A stretch of DNA of 64,000 bases. It comes from a bacterium (GTDB taxonomy: Bacteria; Campylobacterota; Campylobacteria; Campylobacterales; Sulfurimonadaceae). Positions 10,485-19,590 of this stretch are shown here, one piece after another (position 1 is the first letter of the stretch; each line of letters opens with the position of its first letter). Position numbers and translations under genes: made by a program. The stretch covers positions 1 through 64,000 of the forward strand of contig JAHJGM010000055.1 in assembly GCA_018824305.1 (NCBI GenBank). Reading direction: 5' to 3'. The notes under the pieces are model-generated. The model saw only the letters and a list, made by a program, of their open reading frames with translations. It did no database searches and was not told the origin of the DNA.

Positions 10485-12758
10485 ATGTTGTATATTATTA
10501 GATTATTTTATATTGTATTAGTTTCCTCTTTTCTTCATGCAGATGATAAGCTCGAAGATGTATCTCTTCAGCTCCAATGGAAACACCAGTTCGAATATGC
10601 AGGTTTTTATGCCGCTCAGGAAAAAGGCTTTTATAAAGAGGTCGGTTTAAATGTCTCATTTAAAGAGTTTACCAATGAATCTAGTCCGGTTAATGATGTT
10701 TTGGAAAAAAGAGCGACCTATGGCATCACCTACTCGGACTTGATCGTAGACTACCTTAACGGTAAGCCGATCGTTTTTGTAGCGAACTTTTTTAAACACT
10801 CTCCTCTTGTGCTTGTCACTCAAAATAATTTAAAACTTCCTAGCGATCTTAAGGGAAAAAAGATCATGGGGATCGAAAATACGGTCAAAAGCACTGCATT
10901 TTTGATGATGTTCAAAGATTTCGGCATGGATCTTGGCAGCTATATAAGTGTTCCTCCGACTTTTAACATCGATGATTTTAAAAATAAAAAAGTCGATGCG
11001 ATGGTTATATTTTCCACAAATGAGCTTTTTTATTTAGACCAAGACGGAATCAAATACAATGTTTTAAATCCCTCTAGCTATGGGACTGAATTTTATGACG
11101 TCAATCTTTTTACATCCAAAGATGAACTTATAAATCATCCTCAAAGAGTAGAAAACTTTAAAAATGCAAGTATCAAAGGGTGGCAATACGCCCTTACTCA
11201 CAAAGATGAGATCATTGACCTTATCATGAAGAAATATAATACGCAGCATAAATCACGCGCTGCACTTGAGTTTGAAGCGACCCAGATCCAGCATATGGTT
11301 CTGCCCTCGATCTTTCCCGTGGGGAGCATAGACCAAAGACGCGTTAAGATGATGGCGGAAGATTTTAAAGAGATGGGACTTGTCCCTGAAGACACCCCTT
11401 TGGATTTCAGTGATTTTATATATGAGACAAAAAATGATGTAAACACCGATCTGACGCAGGGCGAAAGAAAGTTCCTTACATCAAAAGGGAGTTTAAAACT
11501 CTGTGTCGATCCTGACTGGATGCCTTTTGAAGGGATAAAAAACGGTAAACATATAGGTATCGCAGCAGATTTCTTCAACCTTATCAAACAAAAGTCTGCT
11601 GTTAATATGGAGCTTTATCCGACAAAAAGCTGGCAAGAGAGCATGGATGCGGCAAAGACAAGAAAATGCGATATTTTGACTTTGGCTTCTTCTACACCAA
11701 GCCGTTTGAAATATATGGATTTTACGGATTCCTATATAAAACTCCCTCTGGTTTTGGCTACGAAAATCGACAAGCCCTATACATACAACTTTTATGCCCT
11801 CAAGGATGAGAAGATCGGTGTAGTCGGCGGTTATGCGATCTCCGAGATACTGCGCAAGAAATATCCTACCATGAACGTTATAGATGTAAAAAACATCCAC
11901 GAGGGTCTTAAAATGGTGGAGAGAGGGGAAATATATGGCTATGTGGATAATCTCATGGTCATTGCATACACCATACAACATGATTTTACCGGACTTATAA
12001 AGATATCTGCGCGTGTCAATGAAAGTGTAGCTCTTGCCATAGGCACGAGAAACGATGAGCCGATCCTACATGCAATATTTGAAAAACTTGTTCACACTGT
12101 GTCTGAAAAAGAGAAACAGGAGATCTACAACAACTGGGTCTCGATCGAAGAGACCAAAGAGATGGACTACAGTTTTATACTTAAGCTTATTGCTATTATG
12201 CTATTGATCTCAAGTGCATATTTATATCACTATTTCAAACTTAAAAAATATAGCAAAGAGCTCCAAAGACTCTCTATTACAGATTCTCTTACCGGCATAT
12301 ACAACAGGATGAAAATCGATACTGTCTTGCAGTACCAGCATGATCTGTATGCAAGATATAAAGCTCCTTGCGGCGTAATTATGATCGATATCGATTACTT
12401 TAAAGAGGTCAATGATAGATTTGGTCATCAGACGGGTGATTATGTACTAAAACAATTCGCACACATTCTGCAAACGCATGTCCGTGTAACAGATATCATC
12501 GGCCGTTGGGGAGGAGAAGAGTTTTTGATCGTATGTCCCAATACAGAGATCGATCAGACAGAGAATATCGCCAATCACCTAAAAGAGAAAATAGCCGCTT
12601 ATATCTTCACAAACGGCGTCAAACACTTAACGGCCAGCTTCGGAGTCAGCTGTTTTGGTAATGGAAAGACTATCGACGATATCATCATAGAAGCGGACAG
12701 GGCTCTGTATTTGTCAAAAGACAGTGGCAGAAATCAGGTTACCCGAGCAAAGATTTAA
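10485..12758 (+). CDS. Diguanylate cyclase with two periplasmic binding-protein domains
   Basis: The 757-residue protein has a signal or anchor helix at residues 1-20, then an NMT1/THI5-like solute-binding domain (about 24-300) that opens with LQLQWKHQFEYAGFYAAQEKGFY. A second, SBP_bac_3-type domain spans about 325-555. A single membrane helix follows near 565-585, then a GGDEF domain whose active site reads GRWGGEEFLIVCP (about 672-684). The intact GGEEF indicates cyclic di-GMP synthesis controlled by periplasmic ligands, possibly pyrimidine-like or amino acid compounds. A GATAAAAT promoter element sits only seven bases before the ATG and no Shine-Dalgarno sequence is seen, so the mRNA may be leaderless. 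Confidence 0.88.
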   Translation: MLYIIRLFYIVLVSSFLHADDKLEDVSLQLQWKHQFEYAGFYAAQEKGFYKEVGLNVSFKEFTNESSPVNDVLEKRATYGITYSDLIVDYLNGKPIVFVANFFKHSPLVLVTQNNLKLPSDLKGKKIMGIENTVKSTAFLMMFKDFGMDLGSYISVPPTFNIDDFKNKKVDAMVIFSTNELFYLDQDGIKYNVLNPSSYGTEFYDVNLFTSKDELINHPQRVENFKNASIKGWQYALTHKDEIIDLIMKKYNTQHKSRAALEFEATQIQHMVLPSIFPVGSIDQRRVKMMAEDFKEMGLVPEDTPLDFSDFIYETKNDVNTDLTQGERKFLTSKGSLKLCVDPDWMPFEGIKNGKHIGIAADFFNLIKQKSAVNMELYPTKSWQESMDAAKTRKCDILTLASSTPSRLKYMDFTDSYIKLPLVLATKIDKPYTYNFYALKDEKIGVVGGYAISEILRKKYPTMNVIDVKNIHEGLKMVERGEIYGYVDNLMVIAYTIQHDFTGLIKISARVNESVALAIGTRNDEPILHAIFEKLVHTVSEKEKQEIYNNWVSIEETKEMDYSFILKLIAIMLLISSAYLYHYFKLKKYSKELQRLSITDSLTGIYNRMKIDTVLQYQHDLYARYKAPCGVIMIDIDYFKEVNDRFGHQTGDYVLKQFAHILQTHVRVTDIIGRWGGEEFLIVCPNTEIDQTENIANHLKEKIAAYIFTNGVKHLTASFGVSCFGNGKTIDDIIIEADRALYLSKDSGRNQVTRAKI

Positions 12759-13932: not shown

Positions 13933-14050
13933 TCACATCACCCACTTTCTTTAAAATTTTTGAAACGGAAGTATATCATAATAAAGTAGATTCTACAACA
14001 CGGCTCTTCATGCTATCTTCATAATCTCTTTATACCATTACATCATCAAA

Positions 14051-14070: not shown

Positions 14071-14571
14071 ATGAAAACATTTGTTATTGCTTTGTTATTA
14101 CAGTTGAGTCTTTTTGCGGATGTTTCTATCGGAGAGAAGGCTCCTGAGTTTATGCTTGGTTCTATGGATTCTCAAACTGCATATTCTTTAAACTCTCTCC
14201 AAGACAAGGTGGTCTTACTTAATATATGGGCAAGCTGGTGCAGCGGGTGCAAACAAGAGATGCCAAAACTTATCAAGCTTCAAAACGACTACCATTCAAA
14301 ATTCCAGATAGTTGCCGTAAACATAGACAAAAATCCGGATAACGGCTTGGAGTTTTTACAAGAAGTAGAAAACAAAATCGGGTATATGAGCCATTTTATC
14401 AACTTACATGATCCTAAAAAGTCTGTTCCTAAACTATATAGCTGTATGGGGATGCCCTCTTCATACCTTATCGATAAACATGGGATCATCAGGGATATCA
14501 TTATAGGCAGCGTCGATGAAAATGGGATACAAGAACTTAAAACAGAAATCGAAAAAATGGAGAAAGAATGA
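14071..14571 (+). CDS. TlpA/ResA-like periplasmic thioredoxin
   Basis: The 166-residue protein has an N-terminal signal peptide (about residues 1-16) and a thioredoxin fold. The active site reads NIWASWCSGCKQEMPKL with Cys57 and Cys60. The cis-Pro loop is visible at GMPSSYLID. TlpA/ResA proteins reduce disulfides in exported proteins or in cytochrome c apoproteins. Here the gene heads a cluster with DUF4266, DUF3570 and ApbE genes, so its client is likely a neighbour, for instance the Cys-containing DUF4266 lipoprotein; that is inference. Its stop overlaps the next start (ATGA). Confidence 0.88.
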   Translation: MKTFVIALLLQLSLFADVSIGEKAPEFMLGSMDSQTAYSLNSLQDKVVLLNIWASWCSGCKQEMPKLIKLQNDYHSKFQIVAVNIDKNPDNGLEFLQEVENKIGYMSHFINLHDPKKSVPKLYSCMGMPSSYLIDKHGIIRDIIIGSVDENGIQELKTEIEKMEKE

Positions 14572-14783
14572 AATATCTACTATTAATTGCTCTTCTCTTC
14601 TTTAGCGGCTGCGGCAACCATCTCGTACGCGTCCAGCCATATGAAAAAGAGTATTTTGCACAAGACAAAATGAAATTGAATCCTTTGGACGAAAGAGCCG
14701 AACAGGAGAGTCATATCTTTCTTATAAGAGAAGCTTCAGCCGGAGGCGACAGCGCGTTTCAAGGAGGATGCGGATGCAGATAA
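14568..14783 (+). CDS. DUF4266 small lipoprotein
   Basis: The 71-residue product has a short hydrophobic leader ending in the lipobox-like FFSGC (Cys15). A conserved mid-part includes VQPYEKEYFAQDKMKLNP, and the C-terminus is Gly/Cys-rich: EASAGGDSAFQGGCGCR. This matches DUF4266, a family of unknown function whose members end in GGCGC-like tails. The gene overlaps tlpA by four bases at the front and the DUF3570 gene at the back. The codons for its final GGCGCR also contain the AGGAGG ribosome binding site of the next gene. The paired C-terminal Cys residues are plausible targets for the TlpA-like thioredoxin. Confidence 0.82.
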   Translation: MKYLLLIALLFFSGCGNHLVRVQPYEKEYFAQDKMKLNPLDERAEQESHIFLIREASAGGDSAFQGGCGCR

Positions 14784-15889
14784 TAAAATCATTTCTTATA
14801 TCATTATTGCTTTTTGTCCCTTTTACAAAGAGCTATGCATCCAACCTCAAAGACAGTATGTCGGTAGGCTTTGACACATATTCCGACACTGGAGATGTTC
14901 AGGTATACTCTCCTACTTTTTCATTAATGAAAAAGCTCTCCAAAGAGTTTCTTGTAGGATTTAAACTAAGGATCGACACCATCACTGCAGCTAGCATCAA
15001 AAAGCTTACGACAGCAACGACTTCATCGGCTTCAACAGGCGAGGAGAAAGAGGGGCCAGATGATGTACGCTATGCGCCGAGCTTTTCACTCACCTATGAT
15101 AACGGTAAAGATAGTCTCACAGGCGGGTTTTACCTTTCAAGCGAAAAGGACTACCAAGGAAGATCGGTATTTGCGAACTACGTCAGACAATTGAATGAAG
15201 ACAACACCGCCATCGGTATAGGCGTTTCACAGTCTTTTGACAAATGGAACCCATCTATTCCAAGAGATCTACCAAGAACTGATAGAAAAGAGGGAAAGTT
15301 CGATCTTTCTATAAACCAACTTATCTCACCTACCTTTTCTATGCAGCTCGTTTACTCTTACCTTTACAGCGAAGGTTTTTTGGCATCGCCCTATAACTAT
15401 ACTGTCATCAACGGCGCTAATGTTTATGAAAGATATCCCGAGAAAAGAACCGGGAACGCTTATGCCCTCAAAGGAGTCCTTCTTCTAAACGATTCCAACA
15501 GCATGAACTTTTCTTACAGATACTATAATGATGATTGGGGCATACATTCACATACTGTCAATGTCGAATGGCTCAAAGATTTCTCTAAAAGTGTCACATC
15601 GGGACTAAGACTGCGTTACTATACACAAAGCCAAGCGAATTTTACAAAAAGTCTGGGAACAGCTCTCGCAAATGATACATATATCGTGTCTGATTATAGA
15701 ATGAGTACATTTGACTCTTATGATGTGGGTATACCTCTCATCTATAAACCCTCAAAAGGATCAAATTTCAAGTTGAGTGCAAGTATTGACTACTATCAGA
15801 CAACGAACAACGACTATATAAAAGCATGGTACAATACACCAAACCTCAGTGCTATCTACACGACACTGCGAATAGATTACGATTTTTAA
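14774..15889 (+). CDS. DUF3570 outer membrane beta-barrel-like protein
   Basis: A signal peptide (residues 1-19, ending near SYA) precedes about 350 residues of alternating polar/aromatic strands with repeated YSYLYSEG, FSYRYYNDDW and LRLRYYTQ-like patterns. The protein ends in an aromatic DYDF, as outer membrane barrels do. The overall pattern fits DUF3570, a family of unknown function commonly next to DUF4266 and ApbE genes. I place the start at the second ATG (14774), six bases after a perfect AGGAGG; the ATG at 14768 abuts that site and is less likely. It overlaps the end of the DUF4266 gene. Function is unknown; transport or display of a redox component is a guess. Confidence 0.8.
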   Translation: MQIIKSFLISLLLFVPFTKSYASNLKDSMSVGFDTYSDTGDVQVYSPTFSLMKKLSKEFLVGFKLRIDTITAASIKKLTTATTSSASTGEEKEGPDDVRYAPSFSLTYDNGKDSLTGGFYLSSEKDYQGRSVFANYVRQLNEDNTAIGIGVSQSFDKWNPSIPRDLPRTDRKEGKFDLSINQLISPTFSMQLVYSYLYSEGFLASPYNYTVINGANVYERYPEKRTGNAYALKGVLLLNDSNSMNFSYRYYNDDWGIHSHTVNVEWLKDFSKSVTSGLRLRYYTQSQANFTKSLGTALANDTYIVSDYRMSTFDSYDVGIPLIYKPSKGSNFKLSASIDYYQTTNNDYIKAWYNTPNLSAIYTTLRIDYDF

Positions 15890-15898
15890 GGAGAAGGA

Positions 15899-16837
15899 AT
15901 GGCGATATTTGAAAAGGCACTTGAGGCAGATATTATGAGTACTCATATGCTGATTCGCGCCGATGTCTCCAAACCCATATTGTACCAAGCATATAGTATC
16001 GCGACAGAGTTTGAAAAGCGTTATAGTGCATATAAAAAAGATTCCTTTTTAAACAAAATAAACGCTATGGCAGGCTTGGAACCAGTCATATGTTCAGATG
16101 AAGATATAGAGCTTTTCAAACGTGCCATAAGTGTTTCCAAGGAAACTAACGGCGCTTTTGACATTACCATAGGAGCTCTGAGTCACGGAGCTTACCATTT
16201 TGGCTTTCGTGATCAAAAGATAGCTTCCAAAGAGAATATAGAGAAGCAGATATGTCTGGTCGACTATAATAACATTTTCCTAGAGAATAACACCCTGTTT
16301 TTAAAAGAAAAAGGTATGCGACTTGACCTAGGTGGTATAGGCAAGGGATATGTGGCAAAGAAAATTGCTATTTTTTTAAAAGATAACGGAGCAAAAGAAG
16401 GGCTTATAAACGTAGGGGGAGAGATTGTCTCCTTTGGAAAATCTTACACGATAGCACTGCAAGATCCTTTTTCATCAGATAATTTTTTATACTTTAAAAC
16501 ATCTAAAGAACCTATATCTATCTCAACCAGCGGAGACTATGAGAGATTCATCGGTTCGAAAGAACATAACCATATACTCAACACAAAAAGTGGAATATCT
16601 AGCAATCTCTACTCTTCTATGAGTATCATCAAAAACGGTTTTGATATCGACATGCTTGATGCCTATGCGACTGCGATGTCAAACAATTCCATAGAGGATA
16701 TTAAAAGATCTGCAAATATACTTGATTTTAGTGCTATCTTGATCGATAAGGAGTCTGATTGTTCAATGATAAGAATACAAAAACTTGATTACAAGAACAT
16801 TTACTTGCAGCCTATCCATAATAAGTCAACTTATTGA
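15899..16837 (+). CDS. apbE: FAD:protein FMN transferase
   Basis: ApbE attaches FMN covalently to Ser/Thr of exported proteins, using FAD and Mg2+. The 312-residue protein shows the family signatures in order: an N-terminal strand with STHMLIRAD, GAFDITIGALS, RLDLGGIGKGYVAKKIA, GLINVGGEI, and DMLDAYATAMSNNS near the C-terminus. No clear signal peptide is visible, so the mature enzyme may be cytoplasmic or use an uncleaved signal. A GGAG site precedes the ATG. It is the fourth gene of the TlpA/DUF4266/DUF3570 unit. No protein with a classic FMN-binding domain is in this window. Confidence 0.9.
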   Translation: MAIFEKALEADIMSTHMLIRADVSKPILYQAYSIATEFEKRYSAYKKDSFLNKINAMAGLEPVICSDEDIELFKRAISVSKETNGAFDITIGALSHGAYHFGFRDQKIASKENIEKQICLVDYNNIFLENNTLFLKEKGMRLDLGGIGKGYVAKKIAIFLKDNGAKEGLINVGGEIVSFGKSYTIALQDPFSSDNFLYFKTSKEPISISTSGDYERFIGSKEHNHILNTKSGISSNLYSSMSIIKNGFDIDMLDAYATAMSNNSIEDIKRSANILDFSAILIDKESDCSMIRIQKLDYKNIYLQPIHNKSTY

Positions 16838-16898
16838 TATAATAACAGCAAAATACTTATGTTAGCAGAGAAAAAAAATAGAAATTCATGGTTTTAAT

Positions 16899-18923
16899 AT
16901 GCTGAAAAGATCGCTTAGACACAGACTAATCCTCGCTTTCATAATCGTAGGCATACTCCCATATATACTATTTATGACATATACATTTTTTTATAGTGAA
17001 AAAAAGATCCTCAACGAGATAATCACCACACAGTACAATAAAACAGACTATATATCACATCTTATAGACAATCATCTCAAGCTTCTTGTCAAAGACGTCA
17101 GATTTTTAAGTAATCTGGATGTTATGAACGATATCCTTTCCGAAGATATTGATAGAAGAATTTCAAATATACTCATCCAAAAAACAAAAGATTACAACTT
17201 AGATATGGATCTTATAGTGATCGACAGGCACTATATAATCCTATCATCTTCCAATAATGCACTATTACTAAAAAAGTTCCCAAAACAATATACGTTCACA
17301 TCCAAAAACGGTTATTTTATAGACGCTTCAAAGCTCTATATCTATTCCAAAATATTTGCGAGTTTTGACCTGCAGCAGGAGATAGGGACCCTTATTATGT
17401 CTTACGACCTGCAAAACCTCAACCAATACCTTATAAATCAAAAAGAGTATCACTCTTATCTTGTCAATCATGAACACTCCTACTTTATAGGCAAAGATGT
17501 GGGTATTACAATCGATAATTTCAAACAAAAAAACAGTATTATTACCGATAAAAACGTCATCGTCTATAAACAATTAAACGGTGTGCTGAAAGGATGGTAT
17601 ATTGTCTATGGCGTTAATAAAGAGATCGCTCTCTCTTTTTTATTCGAGCTAACGAACCTTATCGCTTTTTTACTTCCTTTAAGTCTTTTATTCATCATAT
17701 TCATAGCTTTGAAATACTCCAAACGGATCGTGCAGCCTGTTGAAAAACTCACATTCGTAACCGATGAGATAATAAAGACAAAAGACTATGCTACCACGGT
17801 AAATATTGAAGGAGAAGATGAAATAGCGAAACTCGGCAATTCCTTTAACAAAATGATAGAAACGACTAACAATGCACTCAAACAACTCGAGTATGAGAAC
17901 AGTCTGCGTCTGACCAGATTCATACAGCTCATAGAGATCTTTAATACCATTATTCAGACAAATAACGAAGAGGAGTGTCTTAAGATTTCTACAGACTATC
18001 TTAAGACATTAACGAAAATAGAGCATATATATTTTGTTAAACATGCCCGAAAAAATCCAGACTATACCCATCTCTATGTAAATGATTTTGAAAAATCGAA
18101 AAAGATCTATTTCGGATCGCTTACACTGAATATACAAGGCTTTCAAGATAAGAATGAACAAAGGTTTTACAGTTCGATCATTACGATGATAATACTTCAG
18201 CTCGACAGAGTAAGACTTATAAACAAGACCATATCTGTATCCAACGCCAAGTCGGCATTTATATCACTCATGTCTCATGAATTAAGGACTCCTCTTAGTG
18301 CCATCATAGGCTACACCGAGTATATGATAAGCTATGAAGAGCTTAATGACGACCAAATGGATATCATAAGCAACATTGAGTCTTCGGCACACTATCTTTT
18401 AAGTATGATAAACGAAATACTAGACATCACCAAGATAGAAGCGGGTAAGATGGAAGCCTATATCCAGGATGTAGATGTTTTAAAACTTACAAAAAGCGTC
18501 TATGATATGCTTCTTCCTCTTGCCCAGAGCAAAGAACTGCAACTGGATTTCGAGTATGAAGAATCTAAAAACAACATATATAAGACCGATGCAAAGATGT
18601 TTAAACAGATAGTTGTAAATCTTGTCTCAAACGCCATCAAGTTCACCTGTGAAGGTTCGATAAAGATCAAACTCTTACAGCAAAGCGATCGAGTCATCCT
18701 AAGTATCAAAGACACAGGAATAGGTATATCAAAAGATGATATAAAGAATCTTTTTAACGACTTTACACAGATAAAAAACAACCTGCAGGAAAAACACAAA
18801 GGTACAGGATTAGGTCTCTCTCTCAGCAAAAAAATGGCACAGATTCTGGAGGGGGACGTATATCTAAAAAGTGAAGGAATGGGTAAAGGAAGCACCGCAT
18901 ATTTTTATATTATGATAAAATAG
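16899..18923 (+). CDS. Membrane sensor histidine kinase
   Basis: The 674-residue protein has an N-terminal membrane helix (about 10-32), a periplasmic Cache-like sensor of about 200 residues, a second helix near 250-272 and a HAMP linker. After a helical region come HisKA (MSHELRTPLSAIIGYTEY, phospho-His near 459) and a HATPase domain with DTGIGIS and GTGLGLSLSKKMA. It lies 61 bases after apbE, with a GATATAATA promoter-like element at the end of apbE. The response regulator gene follows four bases after its stop. The pair probably controls the upstream redox cluster, an inference from position. Confidence 0.88.
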   Translation: MLKRSLRHRLILAFIIVGILPYILFMTYTFFYSEKKILNEIITTQYNKTDYISHLIDNHLKLLVKDVRFLSNLDVMNDILSEDIDRRISNILIQKTKDYNLDMDLIVIDRHYIILSSSNNALLLKKFPKQYTFTSKNGYFIDASKLYIYSKIFASFDLQQEIGTLIMSYDLQNLNQYLINQKEYHSYLVNHEHSYFIGKDVGITIDNFKQKNSIITDKNVIVYKQLNGVLKGWYIVYGVNKEIALSFLFELTNLIAFLLPLSLLFIIFIALKYSKRIVQPVEKLTFVTDEIIKTKDYATTVNIEGEDEIAKLGNSFNKMIETTNNALKQLEYENSLRLTRFIQLIEIFNTIIQTNNEEECLKISTDYLKTLTKIEHIYFVKHARKNPDYTHLYVNDFEKSKKIYFGSLTLNIQGFQDKNEQRFYSSIITMIILQLDRVRLINKTISVSNAKSAFISLMSHELRTPLSAIIGYTEYMISYEELNDDQMDIISNIESSAHYLLSMINEILDITKIEAGKMEAYIQDVDVLKLTKSVYDMLLPLAQSKELQLDFEYEESKNNIYKTDAKMFKQIVVNLVSNAIKFTCEGSIKIKLLQQSDRVILSIKDTGIGISKDDIKNLFNDFTQIKNNLQEKHKGTGLGLSLSKKMAQILEGDVYLKSEGMGKGSTAYFYIMIK

Positions 18924-18927
18924 TGTT

Positions 18928-19590
18928 ATGAATATATTAATAGTTGAAGATGATAATTTTAATGCCAATATTATTGAGAAACTCTTAAAAAAAGAGGGCT
19001 TTGAGGTGAATGTGGCAGAGAACTTCCAAGATGCCATTGCCTGTATAGACAAAAGCTTTTACAATCTTATCATACTTGATTGGAATCTTCCAGATAAAAG
19101 CGGATATGAGTTTTTAGAGGAGCTTCGCGATCTTTTGATAGACTCACAGGTATTAATGCTCTCTGCCAACGACGATGTGGAGTATAGAGTAAAAGCATTA
19201 AACGGCGGTGCGGATGACTATCTATGTAAACCCTACTCCCATGTAGAGCTTTTAGCCAGAGTTAACTCCCTGCTTCGAAGAACGAACTCAAATAAAAACC
19301 CTGTCATACAAATAGGAAACGTCTTTATTGACAAAAATGCCAAAGAAGTACGACTCGATGATGAGTGTATCAATCTTACACCGGCTGAATATGACATCTT
19401 AGAAGCACTTGCATCAAATCAAAAAAAGACTTTTACAAAGTTTGATCTGCTAAACATTATACACAACGATTACGCTTCTAGTGCAATAAGCAATGTGATA
19501 GAGGTACATATAAAAAATATAAGAAGGAAGCTTCAAGATAAAGAGATCATAAAGACAGTGCGGAGCGTAGGCTACAAGATCGTCGTATGA
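18928..19590 (+). CDS. OmpR/PhoB-type response regulator
   Basis: The 220-residue protein has a receiver domain with acidic pocket EDD (residues 7-9), phospho-acceptor Asp51 in IILDWNLPDKSGYEF and the conserved Lys in CKPYSHVELLARV. It is followed by a winged-helix DNA-binding domain (LTPAEYDILEALASNQ to IRRKLQDKEIIKTVRSVGYKIVV). It is the cognate partner of the kinase directly upstream. Its gene converges on the helicase gene with a 6-base gap. Confidence 0.92.
   Translation: MNILIVEDDNFNANIIEKLLKKEGFEVNVAENFQDAIACIDKSFYNLIILDWNLPDKSGYEFLEELRDLLIDSQVLMLSANDDVEYRVKALNGGADDYLCKPYSHVELLARVNSLLRRTNSNKNPVIQIGNVFIDKNAKEVRLDDECINLTPAEYDILEALASNQKKTFTKFDLLNIIHNDYASSAISNVIEVHIKNIRRKLQDKEIIKTVRSVGYKIVV

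Follow-up and report, generated by a model that had tools for sequence, protein, structure and literature searches.

A putative flavin-based outer-membrane electron-transfer cassette with a two-component system and a shared operator in Campylobacterota

Clusters of ApbE, DUF3570, thioredoxin and DUF4266 genes were described by Meheust et al. (2021, eLife, PMC8238504), with 316 clusters lacking DsbD and 25 DUF3570 clusters holding the VIT1 iron transporter. In Chlorobium, DUF3570 is flavinylated by its cognate ApbE at two [S/T]GA[S/T] sites (PMC8238504), which settles the substrate question for the DUF3570 family, and an earlier note on this DNA, which held that neither DUF has a known function, was out of date on this point. 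The main text of that paper describes neither DUF3570 as a barrel nor histidine kinases. Beyond it, a search of open-access journal papers found no paper on DUF4266/DUF3570 and none calling DUF3570 a barrel. The core gene set is already known and DUF3570 has been shown by others to be an ApbE substrate; what goes beyond the published work is a predicted barrel topology, a divergent subtype, an ApbE without a signal peptide and the shared operator of a wider regulon.

Gene content of the cassette

The window, the whole stretch of 64,000 nucleotides that was analysed, belongs to a 2.4 Mb Campylobacterota assembly that is 99.7% complete. Open reading frames and Pfam matches confirmed six near-contiguous genes, all on the + strand, with TlpA, DUF4266, DUF3570 and ApbE (14071-16837) followed by a kinase and a regulator (16899-19590), as the earlier note had proposed (Table 1). 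The successive junctions are a 4-base overlap, a 16-base overlap, a 9-base gap, a 61-base gap and a 4-base gap. DUF3570 starts within the codons for the CXC tail of DUF4266 (14768-14783), and nearly all relatives, distant ones included, retain an overlap of about 10–16 bases. The gene set and content, the operator, the subtype, the barrel model, the conservation of the sites and the missing signal peptide reported below are all computed from sequence.

Table 1. Positions of the genes, motifs and promoter elements in the window
Feature	Position	Strand	Basis or remark
Predicted operator, direct repeat TCTTCAT-N4-TCTTCAT, 11-base period	14005-14022	+	Perfect match
Third, degenerate repeat copy TCTTTAT	14027-14033	+	
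-10 element TACCAT, 10 bases past the operator	14033-14038	+	Column conserved as TAWAAT in 36 promoters
TlpA/ResA-like exported thioredoxin	14071-14571	+	Pfam AhpC-TSA/Redoxin
CSGC motif of the TlpA-like thioredoxin	14239-14250	+	
DUF4266 lipoprotein	14568-14783	+	Pfam 1.6e-14, lipobox, C-terminal GGCGCR (CXC)
DUF3570, predicted 16-strand outer-membrane barrel, expected ApbE substrate	14768-15889	+	Pfam 1.4e-48; flavinylation of family, PMC8238504
Putative flavinylation site 1, DTITAAS	14975-14995	+	Gly to Ala; AA[ST] in every subtype-B relative
Position of flavinylation site 2, SASTGEE for D-A-V-T-G-A-S	15026-15046	+	Lost; overlapping SSAS remains
ApbE FMN transferase without signal peptide	15899-16837	+	Pfam 2.3e-54; sole ApbE of genome
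Sensor histidine kinase	16899-18923	+	Weak dCache match, HAMP, HisKA, HATPase
OmpR/PhoB-type response regulator	18928-19590	+	Pfam

The four core genes were found together in most of an initial set of 33 Campylobacterota loci and in about 30 further loci, a co-occurrence far beyond chance; they are linked in related genomes, where unlinked neighbourhoods would have told against the earlier proposal of a common pathway. The genome encodes one DUF3570, one ApbE and, in its 99.7% complete assembly, no FMN_bind protein that we could find, and therefore the statement that no classic FMN-bound acceptor lies nearby holds genome-wide. A full-length DsbD is encoded on another contig, unlinked to the cassette, and a second, CcdA-like, protein is also present. 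Compared with the DsbD-type clusters of PMC8238504, the window shares ApbE, DUF3570, DUF4266 with a C-terminal CXC and a thioredoxin-like protein, and some relatives also carry DsbD; it differs in lacking a consensus [ST]GA[ST], a linked DsbD and a signal peptide on ApbE. The haem-c lipoproteins of the relatives, the two-component system and the conserved operator are likewise undescribed in the main text of that paper.

Elsewhere in the window, positions 10485-12758 encode a 757-aa sensor diguanylate cyclase with NMT1/THI5-like, solute-binding family 3 and GGDEF domains. A plasmid origin of the cassette was rejected, as the single plasmid match was a distant one in Hymenobacter and no ApbE is annotated beside it.

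DUF3570 sites, predicted barrel topology and the location of ApbE

DUF4266 is present in 27 of 150 related genomes and, within the genus of the window, in the window alone. The DUF3570 sequences split into subtypes A and B, and the window belongs to subtype B, which is found in Sulfurimonas-like, Aquificota and Nitrospirota (Manganitrophus, Magnetominusculus) genomes. Subtype A carries DxxSGASP and a second SSGAS, and most of its members add a third site within a later loop. This third [ST]GA[ST] lies near residue 182 in most subtype A barrels (L034-L054), in addition to the two sites of 2021, and would align after strand 7 of the model described below, on the same side as the flavin loop. In subtype B, site 1 reads D-x-x-x-A-A-[S/T] in 35/35 sequences, window included. 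At site 2 the 34 others share D-x-[VI]-x-[GS]-A-[ST], against SASTGEE in the window, which is alone in this loss among the sets compared. The window DUF3570 thus has no consensus [ST]GA[ST] where the Chlorobium protein has two sites, with TAAS at site 1 and STGEE/SSAS at site 2. Because a Gly-to-Ala change in the flavinylation motif leaves about 50% flavinylation and Asp to Ala has a minor effect (PMC12052999), site 1 of the window is still a plausible FMN acceptor; site 2 probably is not. The suggestion that one of the cassette proteins could be the flavinylated substrate stands for DUF3570, for which it had already been shown at the family level (PMC8238504), and not for DUF4266, an unlikely substrate since none of its aligned members carries a motif resembling [ST]GA[ST]. 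A deeper subtype B group (L055-L057, L063, L064) lies in a recurrent neighbourhood beside a DUF1588/DUF1592 protein with two CxxCH motifs and a DUF1501 protein with a Tat signal.

The AlphaFold2 model of DUF3570, built with 32 sequences, is a 16-strand barrel with a mean pLDDT of 86 and a pTM of 0.81. The protein also has a signal peptide and a C-terminal aromatic residue (F) which, with the even strand number, are the features of an outer-membrane β-barrel. A Foldseek comparison of the model with PDB folds gave outer-membrane barrels as the top listed matches, none of them close, and a sequence search against the PDB gave no match to solved proteins. The flavin region (residues 70-95) forms the loop between strands 3 and 4, where pLDDT falls below 50. 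By strand count, the long loops at 72-99, 160-172, 203-226, 287-315 and 345-361 are all on the same side, with the termini and short turns opposite. Under the topology rule that outer-membrane proteins usually follow, the flavin side would be extracellular, and the flavin loop probably faces out.

ApbE matches solved FMN transferases at 1.1e-29 over residues 45-258, with its HNHIL aligned with HHIL. Hydropathy and a start-site test, used in place of SignalP, revealed no signal peptide on ApbE in the window or nearly all relatives. A hydrophobic N-terminal stretch is present in 9% of the relatives' ApbEs versus 92-100% of their TlpA, DUF4266 and DUF3570 proteins, mostly 9-18 residues precede the MST/MGT-like start of the ApbE domain, and longer ApbE starts overlap DUF3570 in several loci. 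The window ApbE thus lacks the signal peptide expected of the extracytosolic enzyme in the DsbD/DUF3570 flavinylation system, and DUF3570 is probably modified with FMN before export. Cytosolic ApbEs are known in Klebsiella (PMC12052999). It would be unusual for a cytosolic ApbE to modify an exported barrel, which counts against a flavin cassette. The earlier note had missed the signal-less ApbE, as well as the absence of consensus flavinylation sites and the haem-c partners in relatives.

Haem partners, operator and regulon

The fuller operon of subtype B, seen in Sulfurimonas-like genomes and Aquificota and more loosely in Nitrospirota, runs from the regulator through multihaem lipoprotein, diheme lipoprotein, TlpA, DUF4266, DUF3570 and ApbE, and continues with sometimes DsbD, a porin, a small exported protein, sometimes a receiver protein, and the kinase. 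DsbD adjoins ApbE in several relatives. The diheme lipoprotein (family c6) adjoins the core in 30/32 subtype-B loci with upstream sequence, and occurs in 9/10 subtype-B genomes versus 1/140 others (p = 1.2e-12, Fisher test ignoring phylogeny); its structure model was set aside at a pLDDT of 58. No c6 gene was detected anywhere in the window's own genome, and the window cassette is a reduced version, without c6 and with a changed kinase–regulator order. The porin and small-protein families of the fuller operon occur in this genome on contig C19 only. There, a second operon (C19:103-3219, L201) encodes a porin, a small exported protein and a 578-aa sensor-like protein, and is kin to the kinase module.

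With about 80% identity to regulators of the same-genus genomes G001 and G007, the window regulator groups with them at 100/99 support; in those two genomes the regulator adjoins a different ApbE cassette. Comparing the upstream regions of the window cassette and of this other type led to the operator. The resulting promoter, TCTTCAT-N4-TCTTCAT-N10-TAWAAT (14005-14038 in the window), precedes the cassette, its relatives, nine-haem MtrC-like cytochromes and the second ApbE cassette. Sites reaching 13/14 number 38 in 0.94 Mb of collected loci versus 2 in reversed sequence; 35 of the 38 lie just upstream of a cassette's first gene (TlpA, c6 lipoprotein, nine-haem MtrC-like lipoprotein, porin-kinase operon or cytochrome-porin cassette), and the box sits 29-146 bases upstream of related cassettes. 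The whole-genome count, 36 exact TCTTCAT-N3-A-TCTTCAT sites in 150 genomes versus 0 for the reversed control, carries more weight because the 0.94 Mb of loci had been picked for these genes. At a fixed spacing, the three key columns of the -10 hexamer, which were not used in the search, are T in 31/36, A in 35/36 and T in 35/36 promoters.

PhoB and OmpR boxes are of the CTGTCAT-N4-CTGTCAT type. The operator is like them in its 7-base direct repeat, its 11-base period over the -35 region, as in an OmpR/PhoB-type regulon, and a -10 about 10 bases downstream; it is unlike them in reading TCTTCAT and in its targets, which are redox cassettes, not phosphate genes. The regulator would bind the TCTTCAT repeat. 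The operator occurs in 23/42 genomes with the kinase family versus 4/108 without (p = 5.7e-12, Fisher test ignoring phylogeny). A kinase exclusive to the cassette was rejected, as the family is present in 42/150 genomes, 22 of them without DUF4266. The claim that the cassette has its own two-component system is thus backed by the conserved operator, recurrent linkage and co-occurrence, and weakened by the kinase family also occurring without the cassette.

In the window's own genome, a nine-haem MtrC-like lipoprotein is encoded on contig C16 (2-712; L162, L202), where the contig ends within the gene and leaves its N-terminal part. A perfect operator lies about 48 bases ahead of the start of this gene, and a related protein matches the MtrC/MtrF domain at 4.6e-14. 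A perfect operator and -10 at C25:19244 (L163) precede no frame over 80 aa and may mark a small RNA, a tiny protein or a gene remnant, while a box on C30 sits among coding frames and was taken as chance. In the same genus, three loci (L101 2475-5064, L102 1950-4426 and L118) encode a cytochrome-porin-like protein with one CxxCH, a 107-126 aa protein and a signal-less ApbE, under the same operator and regulator as the window type. The 107-126 aa protein has a conserved SGASGTWSQ, and its longer paralogues (L123, L125) also have HSQSGAS; from its sequence, it could be an undescribed ApbE substrate.

Proposed electron transfer at the outer membrane and alternative explanations

On balance, the data favour a flavin-based outer-membrane electron-transfer cassette controlled by a two-component system, in which thiols feed a barrel-bound flavin with, or instead of, haem proteins. 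The earlier proposal of an envelope redox pathway with thiol and covalent-flavin chemistry agrees with the gene set and the known flavinylation of DUF3570. We infer the surface exposure, the order and direction of electron flow, the binding of the regulator and the flavinylation of the window protein. The kinase and regulator would switch the cassette on via TCTTCAT-N4-TCTTCAT, and ApbE would attach FMN to DUF3570, probably before export, so that the barrel bears covalent FMN on an outward-facing loop at DTITAAS. The unlinked DsbD would then reduce TlpA, TlpA the CXC tail of the DUF4266 lipoprotein, and that tail the barrel flavin. The flavin would pass electrons on to an acceptor outside the cell or to haem-c lipoproteins that share the operator; in this genome that would be the nine-haem MtrC-like protein of contig C16. 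The missing consensus motif, the lost site 2, the absent diheme partner, a loop side assigned by rule from a model and the low pLDDT of the flavin loop count against this scheme.

The missing parts might instead mean that the window holds a decaying copy, with a DUF3570 that is no longer flavinylated and a barrel reduced to a plain porin. Among the sets compared only the window lacks site 2, and the c6 lipoprotein is missing from its genome; however, all four frames are open, the FMN-transferase match of ApbE with its aligned HNHIL is retained, the operator and -10 are intact, and site 1 keeps its Asp, Thr, Ala and acceptor Ser, leaving decay improbable. Nor do we think it likely that the barrel flavin is a local reductase that reduces Fe(III) for uptake (or serves copper assimilation) and not respiration. 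The VIT1 clusters (PMC8238504) point that way, as does a 253-aa protein beside the same regulator module in L103 that looks by eye like a VIT family transporter, but no obvious iron transporter adjoins the window cassette, relatives pair the core with multihaem lipoproteins, and nine-haem MtrC-like proteins are also under the control of the operator.

The same machine could also run inwards and let chemolithotrophs draw electrons, at their surface, from reduced minerals or sulfur. The groups in which subtype B is found, Sulfurimonas-like, Aquificota and Nitrospirota (Manganitrophus, Magnetominusculus), are rich in lithotrophs, and the same-genus regulator adjoins a cytochrome-porin. Against this, DsbD and TlpA systems deliver electrons outwards and DsbD lies within several of the operons, and we regard inward flow as an outside chance of about the same order as iron uptake.

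The favoured outward, flavin-based cassette resembles MtrCAB-type porin–cytochrome conduits in pairing an outer-membrane barrel with a surface redox partner, and nine-haem MtrC-like lipoproteins stand under its operator. It is unlike them in that the carriers would be thiols and covalent FMN, and in that DUF3570 has no sequence match to solved proteins. No MtrA-like multihaem protein, the barrel-inserted periplasmic component of such conduits, was found in the window cassette, and it is therefore not classed as an MtrCAB conduit. Tentatively, and with more doubt than belief, we suggest a thiol-to-flavin counterpart of these conduits, leading from the DUF4266 CXC tail to or through the DUF3570 barrel to FMN on extracellular loops, where one conserved two-component system and its TCTTCAT operator would deploy the flavin device, nine-haem surface cytochromes or the cytochrome-porin/ApbE cassette as interchangeable modules.

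These data place a protein of a covalently flavinylated family in the outer membrane by prediction, with the flavin probably facing out. In Campylobacterota, flavin-based and haem-based redox modules of the outer membrane share a short operator, through which the regulon can be searched for and its inducing signal put to the test. An ApbE without a signal peptide leads one to ask in which compartment a barrel protein receives its flavin.
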